Counted from the stretch's first letter, positions 6,480 through 64,000 are shown. The stretch is DNA of 64,000 nucleotides from Rikenella microfusus DSM 15922 (GCF_000427365.1 NZ_KE386488.1:248001-312000); one strand, 5' to 3'. The notes: generated from the letters alone by a model not told the origin. Numbers and translations are program-made.

Positions 6480-6570
6480 CGCCCGGAGCCAGCGAGGACA
6501 AGACCGAGCTTTGCGAATGTTGCAGCCTTTCGCCAAAGACAGCTCCGGGCTGGCCGTTACACGGCGGACG
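6480..6570. repeat. Module C repeat, degenerate
   Basis: It begins GCCCGGAGCCAGCGAGGA and ends AGCTCCGGGCTGGCCG, the inverted ends typical of module C (best copies at 41711, 57791 and 62101). The interior is shortened and diverged. Confidence 0.6.
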
Positions 6571-6573
6571 ATT

Positions 6574-6704
6574 AACCGTACGATTTTTATTGATGCGATT
6601 CGCAAGAATCGCCGGCTTTCGCGGTGCCTTCGGGTGCTCCGACCGGGAGTTGGCTCCGATGGGGTGGGCGCAAAACCGAAAAAGTAAAACAGTTTAACCG
6701 TACG
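6574..6704. repeat. Module A repeat, diverged copy
   Basis: It is bounded on both sides by AACCGTACG. Inside are a TTTTTATTGATGCGATTC hairpin (GCGATTC/GAATCGC) and a GGGGTGGGCGCAAA tail, as in the copies at 41948, 50959 and 63631. The central stem is diverged here. Confidence 0.7.
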
Positions 6705-7203
6705 TTTCTATAACGGATCGCAGCCTGCGAAGATCGGGAACGAGCCTTGCGAGCAAGCGGGCCGCTACAGCGGAAAGCTCCGGCCAAGTGCAACCTGAAA
6801 GTCGTGGTACAGTTAAAACTGCACTTCCGCATTAACGGACGGAACGCAGTCTTGCGAAAGCCCGGTGCCGCTCGCACTCGAACCTGCCTGCAACTACCAC
6901 CATTCTTCTCCGGCTGCAGTCCCTTGGCAAACAAATATAGGATTAACCAACCATGGAACGACCTCTTGGTAACGCAGACCCCCGTACTGCGAATACCCTG
7001 ACCGGAATTTCTCCTTGTCGCAGGTGGCGGCGCGAACCGAAAGAATCATGCCGTGGAAGATAGTATATATACCAAAAATATACCGGTTCCATCCGTTCGG
7101 GTACCGAACCTCGGTATTACGTCCGCAGTTCTGAAAAGAAGATGCCCTTACGATAAACGGACGCCGCACGGGTCCGAAAGAAGCGGAAACGATCCGATAT
7201 GTT
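6705..7203. other. Repeat-derived intergenic DNA
   Basis: No gene is seen. It contains part of module E (GCAGCCTGCGAAGATC then GAACGAGCCTTGCGAGC, to about 6767), a D-like piece (GGTGCCGCTCGCACTCGA near 6869) and the right end of a class F element (near 7037-7085, ending in GTATATATACC). All are degenerate. Confidence 0.5.
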
Positions 7204-8511
7204 CTACGGCACCAGCGTTCCCATCCCCGACGCCGCGCTCCATCCGAAGCGCGAGCGGTAAGCCTCCAGCGACACCGGCGTCGAATTTCGCGGCAGGTAA
7301 CACGACACCCCGCAATGCGTATTGACCCTCAATTCATTGAACAGCACCGGCGTAGCCGCCGCATAGACCACCGCCCCGGCCAGCGCCGCACGGAACGACG
7401 CCACCAGCGGATCATCCTCTCCCCAGGTGCGCACCACAAAATCCTCCAGGTCATAAAACGTATCGTGAAATTTGACAGACCGGCGGCCGTATTGCTGACC
7501 CGCATACGAGATGCCGGCTGCCGGCAGTCCCGCGTCGCACAACGCCTTGACCGCCCCGGCCAGCGACGGCAGCTTGTCGCTGCGCACCACCCCCACCGTC
7601 GCGCTCCGGTACGCCCCCGACCGGGCGTCGTAATATTCGTAAAACTCGCGGCCGATCGCCTCCGCATCCGTCCGCGGGGCGAACATCGCTTCCATCATCC
7701 GCGCATACGGGAAGCCGTCGGCCAGCGTCTCGGCCGCCGAAGCGATCAGATAATCCGTATGGTCTTTCAGCTCCCACGCCAGTTCGATGCTCGCCATATG
7801 GCACGCATCGAACAGGATGAAATCGAACACGGTCCCGGCCGGGAGCGCCCGCGCCAGCTCGTCGATCTCCATTTCGTTGTTTCCGTGGCTGCCGCTTTGG
7901 CCGAACGAATAGGCTGTCGTCCCTTCGTCCGAAACCGCCGCTCCCCCCGACGAGGCCATTCCTGCCAGCTTCGAACCGGCCCACAGCGGATCGTCCGCCG
8001 GGGGCAGCGCGGATTTCAGCGGCTGCCCCGCCCCTTTCGGCAACCAGCCCGACCCGTGCGACCAGAAGACTAACGCATAGCTTTCCGCCGGGGCCAGCTT
8101 CATGGCATCCTCCACTACCCGGCCCATCACCGCCGGATCGGTCGGATCCGATTCCCGGTCATAGGTTTTCAGCACCCGGCTCGAAATAGTCGTCTGGTCA
8201 TCGTCCCGCGAAATCAGGAGCAACCGGGGCCGTTCGTCGTAATCCGTTCCGCCCGATGCGTAACCGCTCGCGGCTGCCGGCGGGTAGAGGAAAACCACCA
8301 GGCGGCCGTCGTATCCTTCGCTCCAGGCCGCTTCCATTTCGTTGATATCGCCCTCGGCATAACTGTACAGGTTATTATCCGCCACCATATATTCGATCAC
8401 CGTACGGTTCTTTCCGGGCAGCGGCACCTCCGGCCCTTTTTTTTTCTCGCACGCCGTGAATGCCGCGGCCAGCGCCGCCAGAGAGAAAAAGATCGCAATC
8501 CGTTTTTTCAT
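7204..8511 (-). CDS. Clostripain-like (family C11) cysteine peptidase, lipoprotein
   Basis: The 435-residue product starts with a lipoprotein signal (MKKRIAIFFSLAAL..., lipobox FTAC, C21), so it is probably anchored to the envelope. The catalytic domain shows the C11 histidine H152 in WSHGSGW and the nucleophile C237 in FDACHM, preceded by a hydrophobic strand (FDFILFD). The family cleaves after basic residues and is common as secreted proteases in gut Bacteroidota. ATG 8509-8511 was preferred to the upstream ATG (8533-8535) because it gives a standard signal peptide and because a -7 promoter box overlaps that upstream start. It is a single-gene unit. Confidence 0.9.
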   Translation of the reverse strand: MKKRIAIFFSLAALAAAFTACEKKKGPEVPLPGKNRTVIEYMVADNNLYSYAEGDINEMEAAWSEGYDGRLVVFLYPPAAASGYASGGTDYDERPRLLLISRDDDQTTISSRVLKTYDRESDPTDPAVMGRVVEDAMKLAPAESYALVFWSHGSGWLPKGAGQPLKSALPPADDPLWAGSKLAGMASSGGAAVSDEGTTAYSFGQSGSHGNNEMEIDELARALPAGTVFDFILFDACHMASIELAWELKDHTDYLIASAAETLADGFPYARMMEAMFAPRTDAEAIGREFYEYYDARSGAYRSATVGVVRSDKLPSLAGAVKALCDAGLPAAGISYAGQQYGRRSVKFHDTFYDLEDFVVRTWGEDDPLVASFRAALAGAVVYAAATPVLFNELRVNTHCGVSCYLPRNSTPVSLEAYRSRFGWSAASGMGTLVP

Positions 8512-8532
8512 ACCTGCATATCGAAACTTCCG

Positions 8533-8565
8533 CAAAGATACGCTTATTCCGCCAGAAAGCGCAAA
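8533..8565 (-). promoter_or_regulatory. Promoter of the C11 peptidase gene
   Basis: On the minus strand TTTG (8562-8565), a 21-nt spacer and TATCTTTG (8533-8540) match the Bacteroidota -33/-7 pattern. The -7 box is 21 nt before the chosen ATG. Confidence 0.7.
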
Positions 8566-8824
8566 CGGCCTTAGGCCCGGGTACCGACTTACATACTCCG
8601 TACGGGCCGGGTCGATAGATACGACTTTGCCCGAAATCGGGTAATGATCTCTCCCGGACGATCCTACGGACTACCGGGCGCTCCGACCGGCAGTTTTTTG
8701 CGGACAGGGCATGGCAATAAGTTTTAAATCAGATGTTTATCTAAAATAGAATAGGCTGTATATACCGACCATATCCCCTGCGGATCATTATCGGCCGCCA
8801 TTTATGTTTGAAGAAAATAGCGCA
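8566..8824. other. Intergenic DNA with a class B repeat fragment
   Basis: GATACGACTTTGCCCGAAAT followed by GGGTAATGATCTCTCC (about 8620-8660) is the left part of a class B element. The right half is not recognisable. No gene is seen. Confidence 0.5.
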
Positions 8825-8900
8825 AATCCAAAAAATATTACTATATTTCGACAGAAATCCGACCCGGTGTCGGGTTCGTTCACTAATAAAAACAAGCACC
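8825..8900 (+). promoter_or_regulatory. Conserved leader region of NVEALA unit 1
   Basis: These 76 bases are nearly identical to 10588-10662 in front of the second peptide gene. The block holds ATATTACTA and TATATTTC (a near -7 box), a small stem ACCCG-GTGT-CGGGT and an A-rich run into the ATG. Its conservation suggests a shared promoter and 5' UTR. Copying along with the leader-peptide codons is the alternative. Confidence 0.6.
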
Positions 8901-9185
8901 ATGAAAAAATCGACCAAAAGCCTGCTCTTCGGAGTATTGGGAGCCGCGGTACTCGCCGGCGCTTACCAGAACTACCGCATGTCGCAAACGGAAAAGATCG
9001 CCTCCAATCTTACTCTGGACAATATTGAATCATTGGCTCTGATAATGGATTGTTATGCAGAAGCCACTTGTCCGAGCGGCGCTGTCATTCATTGTTCAGG
9101 CGGAAGTTCTTGTGAAAGCGGACCGAACGAGAGCGGCGGCTCGTATGTGATTTGCGACGGGAAATACGGCTCGTCTTGCAACTAA
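8901..9185 (+). CDS. NVEALA-type exported cysteine-rich small protein, unit 1
   Basis: The 94-residue product has an N-terminal hydrophobic signal (LLFGVLGAAVLAG) and a degenerate NVEALA motif (NIESLA, about 41-46). Its C-terminal region has six cysteines spaced C-x5-C-x7-C-x5-C-x13-C-x7-C. The first 39 residues are identical to those of the second peptide (10663-10980), while the mature part differs, keeping only the cysteines and a few positions such as VICDG. The function of this family is not established. Export and disulfide or other cross-linking are inferred. A longer frame from 8808 reads through the conserved leader and is rejected because ATG 8901 gives the same start as the paralogue. 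A propeller lipoprotein follows. Confidence 0.88.
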   Translation: MKKSTKSLLFGVLGAAVLAGAYQNYRMSQTEKIASNLTLDNIESLALIMDCYAEATCPSGAVIHCSGGSSCESGPNESGGSYVICDGKYGSSCN

Positions 9186-9198
9186 TGACTTTAAACCG

Positions 9199-9228
9199 GC
9201 GTAGCGAACGAACGACTCGTCGCTACGC
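9199..9228 (+). terminator. Hairpin between peptide 1 and propeller 1
   Basis: GCGTAGCGA (9199-9207) pairs with TCGCTACGC (9220-9228). There is no long U-tract. It could be a leaky terminator or processing signal separating the peptide from the downstream lipoprotein. Unit 2 has a hairpin at the same place. Confidence 0.45.
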
Positions 9229-9377
9229 TATTGCGTAAACTCGATTAACCCGCCCTGTTCGCCGGCATTTTTAGGTCCGGCACTCAACGGCCCAGCGACC
9301 CGACAGACTGTCCTCCCCGAACCGGTTCGGTATATCGAAATATACAATTTTCTTTTCCCCATTTAACCGAACAAGAC

Positions 9378-10397
9378 ATGCGGATCATATCATTTATTAT
9401 CGGTCTCGGTTCGCTTCTGCTGGCAGCCTGCGGGGGTCCCGACTGTAAAAAGGCCGAAATCGTAGAACTCGGGCCGGGCGACAAAACCATCCACTCCTTT
9501 TCGGATTCTTCGTTTTTCAGCGACATATCCTGTATCGAGACCGACGGAACCGGAAGCATATATGTACTGGACCGCAAACGAAGCCAAATCATTCGCCTTG
9601 ATGAAGATATGCGGCTCCTTTCCGTGATCGGACGTCAGGGACGCGGGCCGCAGGAGATCGGCGCCGCTATCAGTTTTTCCGTCCGCAACGACACTGTTTA
9701 CGTCGGCGACGCCTACAAACGGGGCGTTCTGATGTTCACTCCTTCCGGTGAATGGTGCGGGATGATCGACATGAAAGAGGCGTTTCCCTACTTCAAACGG
9801 TTCAGCGTGCGCGACGAAGGTTCGATATGTTTCGCCGCCTGCTCCGGACAGGAGCGTACCTCGCTGGCGGAATACGACCGCCCAAGCGCTGCAATGACCC
9901 GCTTCGGCCAGTGGACCGACTTCGGTACGCCCGCCAAAAACGACATGCAGAACAAACGTTCCGTTTTTTTCCGCGACGGACAGTATATCGCGGTACCGTG
10001 GTCGATTCCCGTCGTGGAATTTTACGATGCCGCCACCCTCCGGCCGACCGGAACGCTGGACCTGTCGGAAGTGACTCCGGTGAAAGAAATTTACCTGGAA
10101 ATGACAGCCAACCGCGAAATCCGGGAGTCGCCGAACATGTGGTATGTCTTTATGGAGGATACCTATCTGAACAGAGACAAATTGTATGTATTGCTCAATC
10201 CGGACGAAGGAACCGCCGATGAGTTCAAGACTGGCAGCGTGGTGTTGGAAATCGACCTCTCCGGTCCTGAACGGTTCGTCAGCCGGAAATTTTCTCTCCC
10301 CGGCGAGCATCTTTCGCGGATCGGCGTAACGAATAACCGTTTGTACGGTTTCTCGCCGGACGACGCTTCGCTGAGGCGTTACCCGCTGCCGGAATAA
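9378..10397 (+). CDS. Six-bladed beta-propeller lipoprotein, unit 1
   Basis: The 339-residue product starts with a lipoprotein signal (lipobox LAAC, C18). It then shows repeated propeller-blade patterns such as GSIYVLDRKRSQIIRLD, NDTVYVGDAYKRGVLMF and DKLYVLLNPD, as in the 6-bladed beta-propeller family that commonly accompanies NVEALA proteins in Bacteroidota. It is clearly homologous to the lipoprotein at 11038-12039 (shared SDSSFF, GRGPQ/GHGPQ, RESPNM/AESPNM and a final RRYPLP/KRYPLP). It is probably surface or periplasm exposed. A role as receptor, immunity or processing partner of the adjacent peptide is a guess. It lies 192 nt after peptide 1. Confidence 0.88.
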   Translation: MRIISFIIGLGSLLLAACGGPDCKKAEIVELGPGDKTIHSFSDSSFFSDISCIETDGTGSIYVLDRKRSQIIRLDEDMRLLSVIGRQGRGPQEIGAAISFSVRNDTVYVGDAYKRGVLMFTPSGEWCGMIDMKEAFPYFKRFSVRDEGSICFAACSGQERTSLAEYDRPSAAMTRFGQWTDFGTPAKNDMQNKRSVFFRDGQYIAVPWSIPVVEFYDAATLRPTGTLDLSEVTPVKEIYLEMTANREIRESPNMWYVFMEDTYLNRDKLYVLLNPDEGTADEFKTGSVVLEIDLSGPERFVSRKFSLPGEHLSRIGVTNNRLYGFSPDDASLRRYPLPE

Positions 10398-10587
10398 ATG
10401 CCGGTCTGTCCGCCGGTTTCCGCCGCCCGCTGTTCGGGAATGACATCCGCAGGTTCCCGGTGCTATCGCCTTTCTCTGCCGATAAACTTCGGTAAAGAAC
10501 TGTTTATTATCGAGCCCGATTATATATCGGCCAGCCATTCGGATAACGCCAATCGGTTTTTATTTATATTTAGAACTAATTATTGTA

Positions 10588-10662
10588 AATCCCAAAAATA
10601 TTACTATTTCGACAGAAATCCGACACGGTGCCGGGTTCGTTCATTAATTAAAAACAAGCACC
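10588..10662 (+). promoter_or_regulatory. Conserved leader region of NVEALA unit 2
   Basis: Near copy of 8825-8900, with ATATTACTA, TTTCGACAGAAATCCGAC and ACAAGCACC just before the ATG. Differences are a 2-base deletion in the TATATTT stretch and a few substitutions, one of which weakens the small stem. Confidence 0.6.
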
Positions 10663-10980
10663 ATGAAAAAATCGACCAAAAGCCTGCTCTTCGGAGTATT
10701 GGGAGCTGCGGTACTCGCCGGCGCCTACCAGAACTACCGCATGTCGCAAACGGAAAAGATCGCCTCTAACCTGACCTTGGCCGATCTCGAAGCGATGGCT
10801 TTCGAGGAACCGATCGAACCCGATTTGTGGCAACCCGGAGACAACTGCGAAGCACGTACAACATGCAGCAACGGTGCTGAAATCTTTTGTACAGGCACAT
10901 CTTCGTGTTCGAGTGGCAAAGATGACGACGGACTGAAATTTGTAATCTGCGATGGCAATATGTCTGCTTCCTGTCTCTAA
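10663..10980 (+). CDS. NVEALA-type exported cysteine-rich small protein, unit 2
   Basis: The 105-residue paralogue of 8901-9185 has identical residues 1-39, a degenerate NVEALA motif (DLEAMA), and a longer acidic linker (EEPIEPDLWQPGDN) before the cysteine region. The six cysteines keep exactly the spacing C-x5-C-x7-C-x5-C-x13-C-x7-C, with C-SNG and VICDG-like context, although most other mature residues differ. It is presumably exported and oxidised outside the cytoplasm. The molecular role is unknown. The downstream lipoprotein starts 57 nt after the stop, across a hairpin. Confidence 0.88.
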   Translation: MKKSTKSLLFGVLGAAVLAGAYQNYRMSQTEKIASNLTLADLEAMAFEEPIEPDLWQPGDNCEARTTCSNGAEIFCTGTSSCSSGKDDDGLKFVICDGNMSASCL

Positions 10981-10990
10981 TAATTCGCTT

Positions 10991-11018
10991 TGCTCCCGTT
11001 TTGCTGCGAACGGGAGCA
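10991..11018 (+). terminator. Hairpin between peptide 2 and propeller 2
   Basis: TGCTCCCGTT (10991-11000) pairs perfectly with AACGGGAGCA (11009-11018), followed by TAATTTTT. It has the form of an intrinsic terminator or attenuator placed between the two genes of unit 2. Confidence 0.6.
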
Positions 11019-11037
11019 TAATTTTTCAGATACGATT

Positions 11038-12039
11038 ATGAAATTGAATCTTTACCTCGCAATAATCGCCCTGTCGGGTCTGACGGCATGTTCCCAGGCT
11101 CCGAAAACGCAGATCGAATATGTCGAACTGTTTTCGGACAAAACGATGCAACAACTCTCCGACTCCTCGTTTTTCAACCATGTTGCTTGTATCAGCGAGT
11201 ACGAAGGGGATATCTATATGTCCGACCAGAAACGGTGCCAGATATTCCGGCTGGATTCCAACCTGAACCTGCTAAGGACGATCGGCATGGAGGGACACGG
11301 GCCCCAGGACTTCGGCTATATCGAAAATTTCGTCATCCACCAGGATACGATTTTCGTCGGCGACGTGACCAAAATGCGTATTCTGCGCTTTTCCACCGAC
11401 GGGCAATTCTGCGGAGCGGAAAATCCGGACGAAAAAATCCCCCTCAACTACCGCTTTACCATGGATGATAACCATATTTACTACACACGTAACGAGGGGA
11501 TACCTGATAAATCCATGGTGGACTATTGTCGCGATTCGACTGCAAATAAACTCCGGAGATTCGGGCAGGCCACTGATTTCGGGCATCCGCACAAAACCAA
11601 ACGCCAAAACGCGCGTCATGTTCATTTATATAACAATACTTTGGTAACTGTGCCGACTTCTATTCCCGTCATCGAAATTTACGATTTAAAAGGCAATACG
11701 CTTCGATCTGCGGACATTGCCGGAATCCCGATCGTAAAGGATATGTATTATAAAATGACGAATGATCGTAGGATAGCTGAATCTCCGAATATGGCTTATC
11801 AAATATTTCTCGACTCGTATGTATATCGCGACCGCTTGTATATCCTCTCAAGCGTTTACAATAACGAAAGGCTCGACCATTCTTCTCTGCTCGAATTCGA
11901 CCTTTCGAACGGCGGAGCCGAATGGGTGCGCCAGTATGACTTCCCTGATTTCGTGCAAAGATTCTGTATTACGGACGATTATATCTATGGATTCGTTCCC
12001 CAAAGCTCCTCGATCAAACGCTACCCCCTGCCCGCTTAA
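11038..12039 (+). CDS. Six-bladed beta-propeller lipoprotein, unit 2
   Basis: The 333-residue lipoprotein (lipobox LTAC, C18) is homologous to the product of 9378-10397. Blade-like repeats include GDIYMSDQKRCQIFRLD, QDTIFVGDVTKMRILRFS and DDYIYGFVPQSSSIKRYPL. ATG 11038 was chosen over the ORF opening at 10990 because it yields a proper lipoprotein signal and lies beyond the attenuator-like hairpin. A thioredoxin-like lipoprotein follows 13 nt later and is likely co-transcribed. Function within the peptide locus is unknown. Confidence 0.88.
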   Translation: MKLNLYLAIIALSGLTACSQAPKTQIEYVELFSDKTMQQLSDSSFFNHVACISEYEGDIYMSDQKRCQIFRLDSNLNLLRTIGMEGHGPQDFGYIENFVIHQDTIFVGDVTKMRILRFSTDGQFCGAENPDEKIPLNYRFTMDDNHIYYTRNEGIPDKSMVDYCRDSTANKLRRFGQATDFGHPHKTKRQNARHVHLYNNTLVTVPTSIPVIEIYDLKGNTLRSADIAGIPIVKDMYYKMTNDRRIAESPNMAYQIFLDSYVYRDRLYILSSVYNNERLDHSSLLEFDLSNGGAEWVRQYDFPDFVQRFCITDDYIYGFVPQSSSIKRYPLPA

Positions 12040-12052
12040 ACGAGACACGACC

Positions 12053-12595
12053 ATGCGCAAGATATATCCGGTACTCGCCGCCTTTCTGCTGGCGGCCTGC
12101 GGTAATCTTTCTACGAGCACGCCGAAATCTTCGCCGGAGGCCGAAGCCGCCCGCCGCGCCGATTCGGCATACGCGCAATACGAGACGATGATCCGCGACT
12201 TTCTGGTCGGGAAACGGGTCGCTTCGCTGGCTGCGCTCGTCGCCCCGGATACCCTGCCGCACGGTCCGAGCGTGCTCCTGATCTACCACGGCATGGACTG
12301 CGGCAGCTGTCTGGACGCGGGTTTCGCATCGTTACTGCGATTGCGCGGCGCAGGTATGCCCTGCACGGTGGCGGCCGCGGATGCGAATCCGTCGGTAGCG
12401 CAGGAACGTTACCGTTACCGCGATTATATCTACACCGACCGCAACGATCTGCTGCGGCGGGAGTTGAGATACGTCAGCACTCCGATTCTGCTGTTGCTGG
12501 ACGACTCGCTGCGGATCGTCGATATCTACAAACCCGCATCCGGGACGGAAGCCGCCGCCGGACGATTCGAGAAAGCCTCTTCTTCCCTTCGCTGA
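12053..12595 (+). CDS. Thioredoxin-like lipoprotein with CGSC motif
   Basis: The 180-residue product begins with a lipoprotein signal (lipobox LAAC, C16). After a helical segment it has a strand VLLIYHGMDCGSC carrying C83-x-x-C86, in the position of a thioredoxin active site, and a later cis-Pro-like TPILLLLDDS strand. This fits a small thiol-disulfide or thioredoxin-fold protein of the envelope. It is 13 nt downstream of the second propeller gene and so probably belongs to the NVEALA operon. It may oxidise, isomerise or reduce the six-cysteine peptides, which is an inference from context. A longer frame from 11819 overlaps the propeller gene and is not credible. Confidence 0.8.
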   Translation: MRKIYPVLAAFLLAACGNLSTSTPKSSPEAEAARRADSAYAQYETMIRDFLVGKRVASLAALVAPDTLPHGPSVLLIYHGMDCGSCLDAGFASLLRLRGAGMPCTVAAADANPSVAQERYRYRDYIYTDRNDLLRRELRYVSTPILLLLDDSLRIVDIYKPASGTEAAAGRFEKASSSLR

Positions 12596-14433: not shown

Positions 14434-14568
14434 CTCCGTGGTTTTAGCTGAAATCCGGAGCAAGTTACGAATTCCGGTTTACAATCCGGGTACAAAAACA
14501 GGGCCGCTGCCGGACGGCTTCGCGGCGTCGCCTATCGTCCGGGACAGGCCTCCGGCTGAAAAAAAGAA

Positions 14569-14707
14569 GGCGACTATATACGACTTTACACAAACCCCGT
14601 TTCGGCTCTGCGCCGGACAGCATGAGGCGGTGCAAACCCGGGCAAAAGACCCGGAGGGTCCGGTGCGAGCCGAAAAATCATGCCGTGTAAAATAGTATAT
14701 AATTACC
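14569..14707. repeat. Class F miniature element with 8-bp target duplication
   Basis: The 139-bp element has related inverted ends (GGCGACTATATACGACTTTA and GGTAATTATATACTATTTTA). It is flanked by the same 8 bases, AAAAAGAA, at 14561-14568 and 14708-14715. The interior has hairpin arms (CGGTGC... and CCCGGGCAAAAGACCCGGAG) but no coding capacity. It looks like a non-autonomous transposable element. Confidence 0.8.
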
Positions 14708-14772
14708 AAAAAGAATCCTGTAAAAATACATTGTCGAGCCGTATCCCGCCCGGCAATCCGCCGAAGAGCCGT

Positions 14773-26132: not shown

Positions 26133-26161
26133 AACAATCAGAAAAGTTCCATGTAAATATA

Positions 26162-26335
26162 GGTAAGTATATACGACATTACCCAAAATCGGGCAATGAT
26201 CTCTCTAAACGGCCCTGCGGTGCCGCCGGGCGCTCCGGCCGGGAGCCGCTTTTGCCCAAAAGGGGTGGGCGCGGGCCGAAATATACTGAAAATCAAGTGT
26301 GCATATGATATAGGGTAAAGTCGTATATACTTACC
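26162..26335. repeat. Class B miniature element with 8-bp target duplication
   Basis: The 174-bp element has ends GGTAAGTATATACGAC... and ...GTCGTATATACTTACC. It is flanked by TAAATATA at 26154-26161 and again at 26336-26343. It is non-coding, with an internal hairpin (CGGTGCCGCCGGGC...). It is a near copy of 57601-57773 and is probably a mobilised non-autonomous element. Confidence 0.85.
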
Positions 26336-26343
26336 TAAATATA

Positions 26344-26977
26344 TTGTACGCCCTTTGCCCCTTGCGCTGCGTTCGATTCTCCGTCTCCCGACTATGCGCT
26401 TCGGCATACCGGAGCCGTTCGGCGGTCATTCCCCCTCGTTCCGACCCGGCGACGGCCCCTCCGCGTCTTTTGCCCGGGTTTGCGCCGCCTTATGCCGTTC
26501 GGCGCGGAGTCGAAAGCAACGCTGATAATTACGCACAAACAGCACATAATTGAAGATAATTATATACTATTTCATGTCGCATTATTTTGGGGTACTATCC
26601 CAATTCGTGTTGTTGCAGGAAAGTTGCGCTCTTCGGGATACCCCGAAGAGCGTCGGCCCGCAGCCGCCCGATGCGGAGGGCCGCTCTGCCCGCTTGCGCC
26701 AGCTCGCATCCTCCGCCGGCTGCGGACCGGCTAATCTTACCCCCCCAAGAGGATGATTCCTTTATTTTTTCGACCCGCGACGGCCCCTCCGGGTCTTTTG
26801 GGCAGTTTTGCACCGCCTTATGCCGTCCGGGCCGAAACGGGGATGCCGGAAAACCGGTGTACAGTCGTATATAGTCGCCTGATCGGGTTCCGTTTTTACC
26901 GCTCCTTCCGCCCCCGGTGTGAATAAGACCGGGCGGCTCCGCAGGAGCATCCGCCGGAAACGCGCCCGGAAATCCCC
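26344..26977. other. Intergenic DNA with class F fragments and an orphan hairpin
   Basis: No gene is seen. Class F pieces in reverse orientation occur at about 26448-26510 and 26771-26879 (the latter ending CAGTCGTATATAGTCGCC). CGCTCTTCGGG (26627-26637) pairs with 26642-26652 in an isolated 11-bp hairpin. Confidence 0.5.
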
Positions 26978-30246: not shown

Positions 30247-30263
30247 TTATTTTAATAGTACAG

Positions 30264-30369
30264 TTATTTACCAAGGGTCGCAGCCTGCGGAGACCGTGAA
30301 CGAGCCTTGCGAGCGAGCGGGCCTTCGCGGGGCGAGGCTGCGGCCCGCGCGACCTTAAGGTCGCAAAGC
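30264..30369. repeat. Module E repeat
   Basis: It runs from ATTTACCAAGGGTCGCAG to AGGTCGCAAAG. It contains GAACGAGCCTTGCGAGCG and the palindromic CGCGCGACCTTAAGGTCG end. It matches 48492-48595 closely. Confidence 0.75.
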
Positions 30370-30721
30370 ATATCCCTGCCATTTAACCGTAGGATTCATT
30401 TAGCCACGGACGCCTGGGAGGTCGCCCGGACGAAAATAGCCATACGATTAAAAACAAGTTTCCGTTCCGGCGAACGGGTGTACTCTCCCACAGAGGAGGG
30501 AGGGATGCCGTCGGGCCTTGAGAGCCGGGCAATATTTACCTGGATTACAGGGGCGCCCGGCCATCGGAACGACCCGTTTTTGGACGATTGACGGCGGAAT
30601 CCTGCCGTTCCCCGCACGCCGCCTCCGGTCCGGAATGCGCCCCGCCCGACCGAATACCGTGCAGGCCGGTTTCTCTGCCGAAAAAACCGCAACCGGGTTT
30701 CCTACTTCCGGAAAAAAACAC

Positions 30722-33500: not shown

Positions 33501-33521
33501 AGCTATGGATTTAAAAAATAC

Positions 33522-33698
33522 GGTCACTCTACACGACTTTACCCGAACTCAGGCGACGATCTTCCCACCCGGCCCTGCGGTACCGCCCGGCACAGGGGGA
33601 CTGGGGCTTTGCTCTGCTTAAGGGGAGGCGGGCGCGGGCCTAAACATACGGAGAATCAGGTACGCATGCCAATCAGGGTAAAATCGTATATCGTTACC
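33522..33698. repeat. Class B element upstream of ferritin
   Basis: The ends are GGTCACTCTACACGACTTTA and (complement of the right end) GGTAACGATATACGATTTTA. The interior is CCCGGCACAGGGGGACTGGG and GGCGGGCGCGGGCC. The flanking 8 bases do not match, so the copy is older or rearranged. Confidence 0.7.
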
Positions 33699-33955
33699 CA
33701 AAATAAAACGTCCGGTTTCGGGTACGCAAATATACGGATTTTCCCGGCAGGCTGTCCCCGGAATTCCTCCGAAATTATCCCCGGCGGCCCGTCCGCTTTT
33801 CCCGCCCGATACCTGTCTGTCCGGGTTTCGCGCCGGCACCTCCCGGCAGCTCCGCCCGGACGTGCCGCATACGATTCCGGGACGCAAAAGCGGGAACGTC
33901 CCGAACGACCCTCCCCCCGTCCCGACCTCCGCCCCCCTGCCTGCCGGAGCCGGAC

Positions 33956-41578: not shown

Positions 41579-41710
41579 ATCGGGTATTGATATTTCGGTT
41601 ACAATTATTGGGTCCGGCACTCTCCCTCCCCCTCTTATTCCGCAGAATCCGGTCGCTCGGTCTGCGGTTAGCCGCACCGCCGACCATAAAACAATAAAGT
41701 TAAATATTAT

Positions 41711-41947
41711 GGCCGGAGCCAGCGAGGCCCAAACGAGCTTTGCGAGTTGCAGCCGTTAACTTCGCTTCGCTCGTTTTGCCTGGCGGCTTCCTCGCGCTAC
41801 CTCGCCAAAGTCCGCAAGCGGCCTTTAGGTCTCGGTACGCTGCTCGGTTCCTCCTTGTGCCTCGGCCATTCGTGCGAGCCCGATGGCTCTCGGCTACTGC
41901 GTCGGTTCGCCGGGGGTGGCTCCGGGCTGGCCGCTACGCAGATAAAT
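41711..41947. repeat. Module C repeat, long form
   Basis: It opens GGCCGGAGCCAGCGAGGC and closes GGGTGGCTCCGGGCTGGCCG, with CTACGCAGATAAATAA after it. Between these lie GTTAACTTCGCTTCGCTCG and GAGCCCGATGGCTCTCGG hairpins. Close copies are at 57791 and 62101 and an inverted one at 51223. Confidence 0.85.
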
Positions 41948-42060
41948 AACCGTACGGTTTTTATTGATGCGATTCGAAAGAATCGCCGGCCGTTGCGCCC
42001 AAGTCGCTTTGCGGCTTCGAGGGGTGGGCGCAAAGCCGATATTATGGTATTAAACCGTAC
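41948..42060. repeat. Module A repeat
   Basis: It is bounded by AACCGTACGG and AAACCGTAC. It contains TTTTTATTGATGCGATTCGA, the GCGATTC/GAATCGC hairpin and the long stem GCGCCCAAGTCGC/GGGGTGGGCGC. It directly abuts module C. Confidence 0.85.
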
Positions 42061-42079
42061 ATTAAAATCGTAACGTTTA

Positions 42080-42205
42080 TGTTAGTCTGCGACCTATGGT
42101 CGCGCGGGCCGCAGCCTCCCGCAGCGGAGGCCCGCAAAATCAATCGCTCACGCGATTGTTGCGTTCCCCGCAGGCTGCTGCCCTTGGCAAACATAAAATC
42201 TAACT
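42080..42205. repeat. Module E repeat, variant in reverse orientation
   Basis: It begins TGCGACCTATGGTCGCGCGG and ends CGCAGGCTGCTGCCCTTGGC, the complement of the E start. The middle (AATCGCTCACGCGATT) is replaced relative to the copies at 30264 and 48492. It is the third member of the C-A-E array. Confidence 0.7.
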
Positions 42206-44092: not shown

Positions 44093-44492
44093 AACGGCTT
44101 TTCTCCGGTACGATCAGGGGACCGCGCCTGCCGTCGGAAGACGGGGGCGCGGTTTTCATATAATATGATTGCCGTATCCGGAGGCTTTTCCGGCCGGCTC
44201 AGGCCGGTATGGCACAGGGGACCGGGGCTTTGCTCTGCTTAAGGAGGCGGACGCGGGCCGAAATATACTGAGAATCAAGCACGCATATAAATTAGGGTAA
44301 AGTCGTACGTAGTTACCCAAAGAGTAAAGCCGTGCCTGCCTGAGTCGGATACCTGTCGATCTGCAGACCATTTATCCGCTGCTTTTTCGGCCCGCGCCGG
44401 CCCCTCCGGGTTTGTACCGCCTCATGCCGTCCGGCGCCGGATCGGCAGAGGCAGATTATCGCCGGCCATGTCCGGTATATGAGCGCAGATAA
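44093..44492. other. Intergenic DNA with class B and class F fragments
   Basis: About 44208-44317 is the right two-thirds of a class B element, ending GGGTAAAGTCGTACGTAGTT. About 44370-44480 is a reversed class F fragment (TTTTTCGGCCCGCGCCGGCC then ACCGCCTCATGCCGTCCGG). No gene is seen. Confidence 0.55.
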
Positions 44493-45902: not shown

Positions 45903-45961
45903 CGGTCGGTAACTATATACGACTTTTACCCTTTATACGTACTTTTAATTTGAAGATTCAA

Positions 45962-46058
45962 GGCCGGAGCCAGCGGGGCCGCAACAAGCACCGCGCAGTT
46001 GCAGGCCGCCGCCCGGGGTGGCTCCGGCCTGCCCGCTACGCGGATAAATAACCGTACG
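45962..46058. repeat. Module C repeat, short form
   Basis: It runs from GGCCGGAGCCAGCGGGGC to GGTGGCTCCGGCCTGCCCGC, followed by TACGCGGATAAATAACCGTA. It lacks the long interior of 41711. A class B left end (AACTATATACGACTTTTACC) lies at about 45910-45929, so this gap before bioA holds two repeat pieces. Confidence 0.75.
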
Positions 46059-46268
46059 ATTAACTGCAACCTCAGGCTGTACGGACCGGCATTGTCGCCT
46101 CCGGATGCAGCCGGTCAATTGACAATAACCCGTTACCTGCGATCTCCACGGCAACGATTCCGGGACACCCGCCTGAAATATCTCCGGATAACCCCGGCAA
46201 AAAGTCCCGCACAAGGGTTTTCCACCCTAATCCGAACGCTGAAACACGAACCGGACACCGAACCGACC

Positions 46269-47597: not shown

Positions 47598-47950
47598 TCT
47601 CTTTCCTCGTTTCCGACAGGGGGCCTACGGTACAATTTTCGAAAAACGGAAGCAACTATATACAGCTTCCTGATCGTACACTTTAACGACCGAACATATT
47701 CGGAACGGTTTTCCCTTTCGGCTCGGCGCCGGACGATTTTCATTTGTCCGGCACGGAGACCCGGCGGTTCCGCGAACCGCGAAAAACAGGCAATCGTTCC
47801 GACAACAAACCCGAAAGGTAAACATCGACCTTACTCCAAATCGGGCAATACCCCCTAAAACGATCCTGCTCCAGTTCGAGTACCGAGCGGCACCGGGTCT
47901 CCCGAAGGGGAAGACATCTGGTCTGCCCGCTAACGCGGATACTTATTATT
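47598..47950. other. Intergenic DNA after bioA, repeat traces
   Basis: AGCAACTATATACAGCTTCC (about 47650) and TACTCCAAATCGGGCAATAC (about 47831) look like class B or F ends with the intervening part rearranged. 47860-47940 resembles the middle of module D in reverse. No gene is seen. Confidence 0.45.
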
Positions 47951-47966
47951 TTAACCGTACGGTTAA
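47951..47966. repeat. Perfect 16-bp linker palindrome
   Basis: TTAACCGTACGGTTAA is a perfect palindrome and the fullest example of the linker that separates repeat modules elsewhere in the window. Confidence 0.8.
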
Positions 47967-47990
47967 GATTAAATTTCCGCGTTAGCGGTC

Positions 47991-48060
47991 AGGCCGGAGC
48001 CACCCCAGACGGCGGCCTGCAACTGCGCTGCGCTTGTTTTGGCTTCGCTGGCTCCGGCCA
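47991..48060. repeat. Module C repeat, short inverted form
   Basis: It runs from AGGCCGGAGCCACCCCAGAC to TTCGCTGGCTCCGGCC, with AACTGCGCTGCGCTTGTTTT inside. It is preceded by the D/C-type end TTCCGCGTTAGCGG. Confidence 0.75.
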
Positions 48061-48168
48061 TAAAATTAACCGTACCCATTAAGTTTTCACCTCGTTCATT
48101 TATTTGTAGAGGCTGCAAACCCGTACTTTGATACCAATGTAAAAAGCCGGGAGTATTTTTAAATTAGA

Positions 48169-48296
48169 CTTCCGCGTTAGCGGGCGGGTCGGACGCCTCC
48201 CCATCGGGAGGCCCGGTGCCGCTCGGTACAGGGGGCCGGGCTGTAATTACCCGAGACTTCCCGGGCGTCCGACTCGAATGAAAAATAATCGTACGT
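48169..48296. repeat. Module D repeat
   Basis: It runs from CTTCCGCGTTAGCGGGCGGG through CTCCCCATCGGGAGGCCCGG to the GGGCGTCCGACTCGAATGAA end and a TCGTACG linker. It matches 51088 and 51395. Confidence 0.8.
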
Positions 48297-48320
48297 TTAT
48301 TTCAATGTTCTCCCTTAGTC

Positions 48321-48389
48321 AGGCCGGAGCCACCCCGGGCGGCGGCCTGCAACTGCGCTGCGCTTGTTTCGGCTCCGCTGGCTCCGGTC
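48321..48389. repeat. Module C repeat, short inverted form
   Basis: AGGCCGGAGCCACCCCGGGC...CTGCGCTGCGCTTGTTTCGG...GGCTCCGG is a near copy of 47991-48060. Confidence 0.75.
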
Positions 48390-48491
48390 TGCTCATCGGG
48401 AGGCCTGGTGCCGCTGGGCACTCCAGCCGGACTGCAACTACCCCAAACCACAACCGCTCCCGGGCGTCCGGACTATAAAGAACCATACGGT

Positions 48492-48595
48492 TGTTTACTA
48501 AGGGGCGCAGCCTGTGAGACCGTGAACGAGCCTTGCGAGCAAGCGGGCCTCCGCGGGGCGAGGCTGCGGCCCGTGCGACCTGAAAGTCGCAAAGC
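48492..48595. repeat. Module E repeat
   Basis: It runs from TGTTTACTAAGGGGCGCAGC to TGAAAGTCGCAAAGC, with GAACGAGCCTTGCGAGCAAG and CGGGGCGAGGCTGCGGCCC inside. It matches 30264-30369. Confidence 0.8.
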
Positions 48596-50958: not shown

Positions 50959-51076
50959 AACCGTAGGGTTTTTATTGATGCGATTCGAAAGAATCGCCGG
51001 CCTTTGCGCCCAAGCCGCTTTGCGGCTTCGGGGGGTGGGCGCAAAGCCGAATAGGTAAAACAGTTTAACCGTACGG
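50959..51076. repeat. Module A repeat
   Basis: It runs from AACCGTAGGGTTTTTATTGA to AGTTTAACCGTACGG, with stems GCGATTC/GAATCGC and GCGCCCAAGCCGC/GCGGCTTCGG plus GGGTGGGCGC. Confidence 0.85.
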
Positions 51077-51087
51077 ATAAAAACAAG

Positions 51088-51196
51088 TTTCCGCGTTAGC
51101 GGGCGGGCCGGACGCCTCCCCACGGGAGGCCCGCAACCCTCGCACGCTCGGGGCGGTCTCCCGGACGTCCGACCCGAATGAAAAATGACCGTACGA
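51088..51196. repeat. Module D repeat
   Basis: It runs from TTTCCGCGTTAGCGGGCGGG to GACCCGAATGAAAAATGACC and the GTACG linker. The middle has CGCAACCCTCGCACGCTCGG in place of the GCTCGGCACTCGAGC of other copies. Confidence 0.8.
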
Positions 51197-51222
51197 TTTT
51201 ATGTAAAGTTCTCCCGATATCA

Positions 51223-51360
51223 GCCCGGAGCCACCCCGGCGAACCGACGCTGCCAGCGAGAGCCATCGGGCTCGCACGAATGGCCGAGCGGCGAGGAGGA
51301 CAACGAGCGAAGCGAAGTTAACGGCTGCAACCTGCGGTCGCGCCCTCGCTGGCTCCGGGC
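51223..51360. repeat. Module C repeat, inverted, intermediate length
   Basis: Read on the minus strand it begins GCCCGGAGCCAGCGAGGGCG and ends GGGGTGGCTCCGGGC, with GTTAACTTCGCTTCGCTCG and GAGCCCGATGGCTCTCGC inside. Confidence 0.8.
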
Positions 51361-51394
51361 GGAAGCAGCAAGTTAAAAGTATGGTTGAATTAGG

Positions 51395-51520
51395 CTTCCG
51401 CGCCAGCGGGCGGGCCGGACACCTCCCCACGGGAGGCCCGGTGCCGCTCGGCACTCGAGCCGGGCTGTAACTACCCGGACCCTCCCGGGCGTCCGACCCG
51501 AATGAAAAATAACCCTACGA
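51395..51520. repeat. Module D repeat
   Basis: It runs from CTTCCGCGCCAGCGGGCGGG to GAATGAAAAATAACCCTACG. It is the fourth module (A-D-C-D) of the array upstream of the TlpA gene. Confidence 0.8.
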
Positions 51521-51657
51521 TTATCCGCAACGCGAAGAGACCCCGGCGAACGGATATTCCGCCCGCAAGCGGCACGAACCGTTCCGGACCCACAATAAGT
51601 TCCGGGCTAACAATCAGTTCCCGGCCGACAATAAAACGAACGAAACGACATATCTGC

Positions 51658-57500: not shown

Positions 57501-57600
57501 CGGGCTTCCCGCTGTTCTTTGTCCTGCTTCATGCCGGCGGGGCACTTACTTTCTACGCTCGCCAGCGACAGATATGACATTAAACCTACGATTAAATTGA

Positions 57601-57773
57601 GGTAAGTATATACGACTTTACCCGGAATCGGGAAATGATCTCCCTAACCGGCCCTGCGGTGCCGCTCGGCACTCGAATCGGGGCTTTTCTCTGCTTAAAG
57701 GGGTGGGCGCGGGCCGAAATATACTGAGAATTAAGCGGGCACATAATATAGGGTAAAGTCATATATACTTACC
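57601..57773. repeat. Class B miniature element, second copy with target duplication
   Basis: It is 173 bp, with ends GGTAAGTATATACGAC... and ...CATATATACTTACC. The flanks are TAAATTGA (57593-57600) and TAAATTTA (57774-57781), matching in 7 of 8 bases. The interior is nearly the same as 26162-26335. Confidence 0.85.
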
Positions 57774-57790
57774 TAAATTTATATGTTGTC

Positions 57791-57963
57791 GCCCGAAGCC
57801 AACGAGGGTCAAACGAGCTTTGTGAGTTGCAGCCGTTAACTTCGCTTCGCTCGTTTTCCTCCTTGTGCCTCGGCCATTCGTGCAAGCCCGATGGCTCTCG
57901 GCTACTGCGTCGGTTCGCCGGGGGTGGCTCCGGGCTGACCGCTACGCGGATAATTAATCGTAC
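57791..57963. repeat. Module C repeat, long form
   Basis: It runs from GCCCGAAGCCAACGAGGGTC to GGGTGGCTCCGGGCTGACCG and TACGCGGATAATTAATCGTA. It abuts the class B element 57601-57773, only 17 bp away. Confidence 0.85.
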
Positions 57964-61850: not shown

Positions 61851-62100
61851 ATCTTTTGCGGTGTTATTTTTTGCGGGCGGGGACTTTTCTTCTTCCGGCC
61901 GGCATTTCTCCGGAAGCCGACCTTTCCCTGCTCTTTTTCGGGTTGTTTCCGGCTTTTTCGGTTTCTTGGCTTTTCTTTGCTTTTTCGGGAGCTTTTGCCC
62001 CGGTCCGTTTGCTGTTCGGCAACGGGTTTCATGCGGACGGCGGTCTCCCGGGCGCCTGCCCGCGATGAATAAAATCGTACTTTTAATTTGCTGATTCAAA

Positions 62101-62274
62101 GCCCGGAGCCAGCGAGGGCTAAACGAGCTGTGCGAGTTGCAGCCGTTAACTTCGCTTCGCTCGTTTTCCTCCTTGTGCCTCGGCCGTTCGTGCGAGCCCG
62201 ATGGCTCTCGGCTACTGCATCGGTTCGCCGGGGGTGGCTCCGGGCTGACCGCTACGCGGACAATTAACCGTACG
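62101..62274. repeat. Module C repeat, long form, in the batB-batD gap
   Basis: It runs from GCCCGGAGCCAGCGAGGGCT to GGGTGGCTCCGGGCTGACCG and TACGCGGACAATTAACCGTA. It is nearly identical to 57791-57963. Confidence 0.85.
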
Positions 62275-62365
62275 ATTATTTTTCATTCGGGTCGGACGTC
62301 CGGGAGACCGCGGTAGTTACAGCCCGGCCCCCTGTACCGCTCGGCACAGGGTCGCAGCTTCACCT
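62275..62365. repeat. Module D repeat, reverse orientation
   Basis: It starts ATTTTTCATTCGGGTCGGAC, the complement of the D end, and continues to CGCTCGGCACAGGGTCGCAG. The GCGTTAGCGG end is missing. It follows module C directly at the AACCGTACG linker. Confidence 0.7.
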
Positions 62366-63540: not shown

Positions 63541-63630
63541 ATCGTACTATTTTTCTTCGACCGTATTTTGAATCTCCCTCTTCTATTATTCGGCTTCGGG
63601 GGAGCGCACGAAGCCGGATGGGTAAATTTT

Positions 63631-63747
63631 AACCATACGATTTTTGTTGATGCGATTCTTCAGAATCGCCGGCTTTCGCGCCCAAGCCGCTTTTGCGGCT
63701 TCGGGGGGTGGGCGCAAAGCCGATATTATGGTATTAAACCTACGGTT
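63631..63747. repeat. Module A repeat
   Basis: It runs from AACCATACGATTTTTGTTGA to TATTAAACCTACGG, with the stem GCGCCCAAGCCGC/GCGGCTTCGG and GGGTGGGCGC. A second, truncated A tail lies at about 63586-63630. Confidence 0.85.
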
Positions 63748-63748
63748 A

Positions 63749-64000
63749 AGACTAAATTTCCGCGTCAGCGGGCGGGTCGGACGCCTTATGCGGGCAGGGC
63801 ACTTACTTTTTTGCGCGACCAAAAAAGTAAGCAAAAAAGTCGCCGGGAATGCGATTCCCCGCTCCCGACTCCCGTCGGAACGGAAAATCGCACATTCCCG
63901 GGTCAGCAGTCTCTACCCGTACTTCGATACCAATGTAAGAAGCCGGGAGTACTTTTTAATCGTATGGTTTATTTCAATGTTCTTCCTTTGTCAGGCCGGA
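63749..64000. other. Module D start, hairpin unit and repeat junction at window end
   Basis: A D start (TTTCCGCGTCAGCGGGCGGG) at 63759-63778 breaks off into a separate unit holding the perfect hairpin CTTACTTTTTT/AAAAAAGTAAG (63802-63831). From about 63911 the sequence resembles 48117-48160 and 48290-48326, ending with a C start at the window edge. No gene is seen. Confidence 0.55.

Follow-up and report, generated by a model that had tools for sequence, protein, structure and literature searches.

Positions 8,825-12,595 of the Rikenella microfusus DSM 15922 DNA analysed here (GCF_000427365.1 NZ_KE386488.1:248001-312000; 64,000 nucleotides (nt), referred to as the window) hold two genes for small cysteine-rich peptides of the NVEALA type, each with the gene for a six-bladed propeller lipoprotein downstream, and the gene for a lipoprotein with a predicted thioredoxin fold. 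Based on the comparison with related loci, we conclude that a system of cognate peptide-propeller pairs probably exists. We give slightly less than an even chance to the fuller reading that the locus belongs to a polymorphic exported-peptide system with cognate propellers and with antagonism as its likely purpose. The sequence-only reading of the window had proposed a secreted disulfide-rich peptide system with partners and a thiol enzyme; this stands in part, the pairing, the co-variation and the predicted thioredoxin fold with an invariant CxxC motif speaking for it on the sequence side.

The same reading had described two consecutive units, each with a six-cysteine exported protein and a propeller lipoprotein, and a CGSC lipoprotein 13 nt after the second propeller. 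The coordinates and motifs agree with this description, as follows.

8800-9038 (+): duplicated 5' region and leader of peptide 1, a copy of 10562-10800 (BLAST self-match).
8901-9185 (+): exported NVEALA-type peptide 1, 94 amino acids (predicted export and cleavage; leader profile).
9378-10397 (+): six-bladed propeller lipoprotein 1 with LAAC lipobox, pairing with peptide 1 (profile and lipobox).
10562-10800 (+): second copy of the 5' region and leader (BLAST self-match).
10663-10980 (+): exported NVEALA-type peptide 2, 105 amino acids (predicted export; leader profile).
11038-12039 (+): six-bladed propeller lipoprotein 2 with LTAC lipobox, pairing with peptide 2 (DUF5128; AlphaFold and Foldseek).
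12053-12595 (+): CGSC lipoprotein, C83-G-S-C86, with predicted thioredoxin fold (AlphaFold, Foldseek and CxxC conservation).

Both peptides show the NVEALA-type layout of a hydrophobic signal, an NVEALA-like motif and a cysteine-containing C-terminus. Peptide 1 carries a predicted signal peptidase I (SPI) site between S28 and Q29, followed by an 18-residue propeptide ending NIESLA and a predicted mature part of 48 residues (9039-9182) with six cysteines, while the corresponding motif of peptide 2 is DLEAMA and its predicted mature part has 59 residues, again with six cysteines. All the cysteines lie past the motif, and the leaders contain none. The two peptides are classed as NVEALA-type through the leader profile and not as Pfam members, their scores being 69.9 and 71.0 bits with this profile, which was built from 16 same-genome paralogues including both of them, and 18.5 and 19.3 bits with Pfam NVEALA (PF14055; gathering score, 27 bits). 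Propeller 2 exceeds the DUF5128 (PF17170) cut-off of 22.9 bits (39.5 bits, 5e-10), and propeller 1, 41% identical to it, falls marginally below (21.3 bits); both carry a lipobox. The upstream and leader DNA of the two units is 88% identical, with the similarity ending on the last base of the motif, and leader codons 1-39 differ only synonymously, leaving 39 residues identical in the protein. DNA identity is 64% for the mature parts and 61% for the propellers. As judged from these identities, the tandem arose by true duplication of a stretch comprising 5' region and leader.

Profiles for the peptide leader (N), the propeller (P), the thiol lipoprotein (T) and an S26 signal peptidase (S) served to map gene neighbourhoods in 31 Bacteroidales genomes; the counts depend on open reading frame calling and on iterated profiles, and individual genes may be misassigned. 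By the leader profile, the genome of the window (Rikenellaceae) contains 18 NVEALA-type peptides at 11 loci, the window locus included. A propeller gene directly follows the peptide gene for 122 of the 151 peptides: 17/18 in the same genome, where the count is partly by selection because the propeller profile was seeded with propellers beside the peptides of this genome, 23/25 in the same genus, and 82/108 in other Bacteroidales. The regions of other genomes were picked by peptide matches, and the propellers there were detected independently. Conversely, 10 of the 12 Pfam DUF5128 propellers of the window's genome lie directly downstream from an NVEALA-type peptide. The median gap between the two genes is 12 nt in this genome and the genus, and 70 nt in the order. 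The refuting outcome named with the earlier reading, a lack of consistent pairing in related genomes, thus did not occur; the check gave a consistent pairing in relatives, together with co-variation of mature peptide and propeller. The thiol lipoprotein follows the propeller in only 8 of 17 units of the window's genome, and the earlier description of the locus as closed by this protein does not hold generally.

Co-variation was determined for 118 peptide-propeller pairs, with 500 permutations within genomes. Between genomes, the similarity of mature peptides and that of propellers were correlated with r=0.648 (permutations: mean 0.055, maximum 0.216, 0/500 as high), and between families with r=0.384 (permutation maximum 0.252, 0/500). 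The mean propeller score rose with peptide similarity from 0.04 (similarity below 0.2) to 0.39 (0.3-0.4) and 0.74 (above 0.6). These values bear on an alternative in which peptide and propeller are not physical partners and are merely linked, travelling together on mobile or recombining DNA. The units do occur on plasmids and do recombine, but the leader, a part of the same gene as the mature peptide, is not co-inherited with the propeller (r=0.074, matched by 82/500 permutations). Likewise, for units with an extra propeller upstream, the peptide was correlated with the downstream propeller (r=0.715) but not with the upstream, non-cognate neighbour (r=-0.007), and the pairing persists across families. 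Mere linkage is, in our judgement, very improbable. The linkage between the thiol lipoprotein and the peptide is looser (r=0.27), as expected if this protein is a general enzyme.

The exchange of units between genomes also points to the pair. Between a locus of the window's genome (L038) and one of the same genus (L122), the DNA is about 95% identical from the leader end or motif through the mature peptide, the propeller and most of the thiol lipoprotein; the upstream DNA is about 50% identical, and L122 has a leader like that of the unit next to it. At a syntenic site (L034/L079), the leaders are 71% identical, and both the mature peptides and the propellers are unrelated. More cross-genome pairs combine similar mature parts and propellers with unrelated upstream DNA. 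From these comparisons, the mature peptide, the propeller and the thiol lipoprotein are exchanged as one cassette behind the leader of the host, with the breakpoint at the NVEALA motif. A toxin and its immunity protein would be expected to swap in this way, and so would a signal and its receptor.

Signalling by the peptides, or kin recognition, with the mature peptide as signal and the propeller as specific receptor or co-receptor, has to be weighed, since signal-receptor specificity groups show cognate pairing and cassette swapping just as typically. The many paralogues per genome fit this model, in which unpaired propellers would listen to the peptides of other strains, and at one locus (L117 5445-7455, +) a sensor-kinase-like and response-regulator-like pair was found by eye, once only, beside a unit. 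However, no transducer recurs beside the units in the maps and in selected family searches, in which not every neighbour was typed, and the propellers are predicted lipoproteins without a cytoplasmic part. Acidic residues after the lipid-bearing cysteine are the surface-export signal of Bacteroidetes lipoproteins. Two acidic residues at positions +2 to +6 after this cysteine were found in only 14 of 177 propellers, which favours a periplasmic location; the propellers are probably periplasmic, and the scarcity of the signal speaks mildly against a surface receptor. Taken together, signalling appears unlikely. The AlphaFold model of propeller 2 (predicted local distance difference test (pLDDT), 85) matched NHL propellers in Foldseek and also the uncharacterised Bacteroides structures BF0058/BVU_1028 (PDB 4raa, 3s9j).

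Unpaired propellers are common, numbering 71; 34 of them are similar to a propeller that is paired in a different genome, and 39 leave too little space for a peptide gene. These orphans bear on another model, in which the propeller acts as chaperone, carrier or modifier dedicated to its peptide, and peptide and propeller jointly form an envelope structure built or decorated by S26, transglutaminase-like and O-antigen-ligase-like proteins. Accessory genes of these types do recur among 68 NVEALA regions not selected for the peptidase: 22 contain transglutaminase-like lipoproteins, whose Cys and His are invariant, 11 contain Wzy_C/TPR (O-antigen-ligase-like) proteins, and 20 the S26 type. Orphan propellers without a peptide gene are, however, hard to explain if a propeller serves its own peptide only, and the window's genome has its accessory genes at different loci; we regard this model as improbable.

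For the processing of the leader, two sites are predicted. A Gln occupies the same place, 18 residues ahead of the proposed NVEALA cut, in 85 of 147 peptides. The NVEALA site itself fits the signal-peptidase -3/-1 rule in 142 of 147 (Ala, Ser, Val or Gly at -3; Ala or Gly at -1), but the distance between it and the hydrophobic core is 21 residues (median), whereas the site of SPI substrates is close to the core end. Because of this distance, a special S26 enzyme is proposed. The candidate belongs to an S26 signal peptidase clade of its own, whose catalytic Ser and Lys are invariant. Among the same 247 Bacteroidales genomes, the NVEALA leader was found in 9, the S26 type, set off by a clean E-value gap from 1e-98 to 1e-49, in 7 and both in 6 (P=2e-9, uncorrected for relatedness), in agreement with a putative S26 cleavage at NVEALA. 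In the window's genome, the candidate gene is located at C2:2218 kb, beside a Wzy_C/TPR protein.

The thiol lipoprotein is predicted to have a thioredoxin fold of the TlpA/ResA/StoA type: its AlphaFold model (pLDDT 83) matched TlpA/ResA/CcmG/StoA-type oxidoreductases in Foldseek (best E, 1.2e-5), and the CxxC motif (C83/C86) is invariant in 43 homologues. A general disulfide machinery is reportedly absent from Bacteroides, and the thiol oxidoreductases encoded near bacteroidetocins were proposed to act on these peptides (PMC6671954); the same reasoning would fit an action of the thiol lipoprotein on its peptide. Two loci (L107 7496-8365, -; L108 5804-6667, -) encode a fusion of the thiol lipoprotein with a DUF1573 domain at its C-terminus, and homologues of similar length (about 290 amino acids) recur at other loci.

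Based on these observations, we can suggest a pathway. The peptide would be exported by Sec and cut by SPI before the conserved Gln; the 18-residue propeptide ending NVEALA would then be removed by the dedicated S26 peptidase, reading A-x-A; the thioredoxin-fold lipoprotein would make the disulfides of the peptide; and the propeller lipoprotein, paired with it by sequence statistics, would, probably in the periplasm, bind the mature peptide of its own pair. The purpose may be antagonism between related cells, with the propeller as immunity or sequestering partner, and this is the weakest step. More tentatively still, the loci could represent a new Bacteroidales class of Sec-exported disulfide-bonded peptides, processed by a dedicated second signal peptidase at NVEALA, each with a cognate propeller in the periplasm that neutralises or senses it, the cartridges being swapped behind a host-specific leader.

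Several points weigh against the antagonism pathway. The Spearman rank correlation between peptide and propeller similarity is small (0.08), because most pairs are unrelated in both and only the few peptide pairs of recognisable similarity carry the signal. Linked genes inherited together would also correlate; the leader and upstream-propeller controls indicate a linkage specific to the pair, which falls short of proof of physical contact. Some orphan propellers may have a peptide missed by the leader profile. A propeller of about 330 residues is unusual as an immunity protein, and eighteen peptides in a 2.9 Mb genome are many for bacteriocins. The S26 gene of the window's genome is away from the peptide units, and 3 of the 9 NVEALA genomes lack this S26 type. 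Killing, binding and export are all putative.

The distribution of the NVEALA leader within Bacteroidales is patchy. None was found outside this order in 393 Bacteroidota genomes, the only three matching genomes all being already-known Bacteroidales. A search for the window-type propeller elsewhere gave one distant match only (28% identity, in an NVEALA-positive genome), with no recognisable peptide gene in the 3.8 kb covered, and the window peptide class thus has no recognised relative outside its own genome. NVEALA genes are located on plasmids of Phocaeicola vulgatus (L209, NZ_CP096966.1) and Bacteroides fragilis (L210, NZ_CP043609.1), annotated by NCBI as NVEALA domain-containing proteins; on the former, they adjoin genes for propeller or BF3164-family lipoproteins. 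A widespread peptide class, CxGxGSVxCPxxxxKV, occurs at L036, L129 and many Bacteroidaceae loci such as L161, L167 and L191, often as the first peptide of its array, after which comes a propeller or, directly, the thiol lipoprotein. Elsewhere in the window's genome (L044 3796-8210, -), a small exported cysteine protein without NVEALA, a propeller, a CxxC protein and a Wzy_C/TPR protein stand in a row.

Next to the locus, a clostripain-family (Peptidase_C11) lipoprotein gene adjoins divergently (7204-8535, -; 1.2e-41). A protease related to it is reported to activate Bacteroides toxins (PMC8406203); the gene was considered as maturation protease and dropped, showing no linkage to other NVEALA units in the maps. 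A phage or defence origin was also rejected, as the window proteins had no PADLOC or PHROG matches and no phage record had an NVEALA leader. Short dispersed repeats of about 60-250 nt, 70-95% identical and present in both orientations, form a mosaic family without match in Rfam; they are found at many other loci of the genome and at the following window positions.

Dispersed repeats, first part: 6542-6804, 14562-14716, 26154-26344, 30252-30400, 33516-33702, 41695-42191, 44211-44321.
Dispersed repeats, rest: 45939-46063, 47876-48595, 50959-51523, 57593-57963, 62078-62351, 63630-63786.

NVEALA proteins and propeller lipoproteins are present in gut commensals and their plasmids, annotated without known function. 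With cognate pairs, a predicted cleavage site and candidate processing and disulfide enzymes, two uncharacterised families become one testable system; if the peptides are toxins or signals, they would represent a large, undescribed layer of interaction among gut Bacteroidales. The literature search gave no mention of NVEALA, PF17170 or DUF5128, and its PF14055 matches were unrelated Plasmodium gene names.

Among known systems, the NVEALA family (PF14055) shares the leader architecture and the motif with the window peptides, which stay under its Pfam cut-off; no function, partner or processing enzyme of this family is described in the literature searched. The DUF5128 or six-bladed propeller lipoproteins (PF17170; BF3164 family; PDB 4raa, 3s9j) share fold and lipoprotein type, but no function was found for those, whereas the propellers analysed here co-vary with specific peptides. 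Bacteroidetes Q-rule substrates (PMC5837995) resemble the peptides in the Gln after the predicted SPI site, but the second A-x-A-type site 18 residues on and the linked S26 paralogue lie outside the Q-rule. Bacteroidetocins (PMC6671954) are likewise cysteine-containing Bacteroidales peptides, of about 42 residues, with a thiol oxidoreductase gene nearby, but they have a short double-glycine (GG) leader and an ABC transporter-peptidase, in contrast to the Sec-type signal and NVEALA motif seen here. A GG-leader bacteriocin or ribosomally synthesized and post-translationally modified peptide (RiPP) was rejected as identity: the leader end lacks a GG site, and no ABC/C39 (PCAT) gene was recognised in the neighbourhood maps, in which not every neighbour was typed.

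Polymorphic toxin-immunity systems of the CDI/VENN type have a constant N-terminus, a swap point at a short motif, a variable C-terminus with a cognate partner, and orphan partner genes. Here, too, a variable C-terminal module and its linked partner are swapped behind a constant N-terminus, and orphan partners occur. The differences are that tiny, apparently Sec-exported peptides take the place of large proteins and a propeller lipoprotein that of a cytoplasmic immunity protein, and that the likeness is known from sequence, not from toxicity. The preference for antagonism over signalling is the least certain element, and toxin-immunity is most likely the closest likeness of the system.

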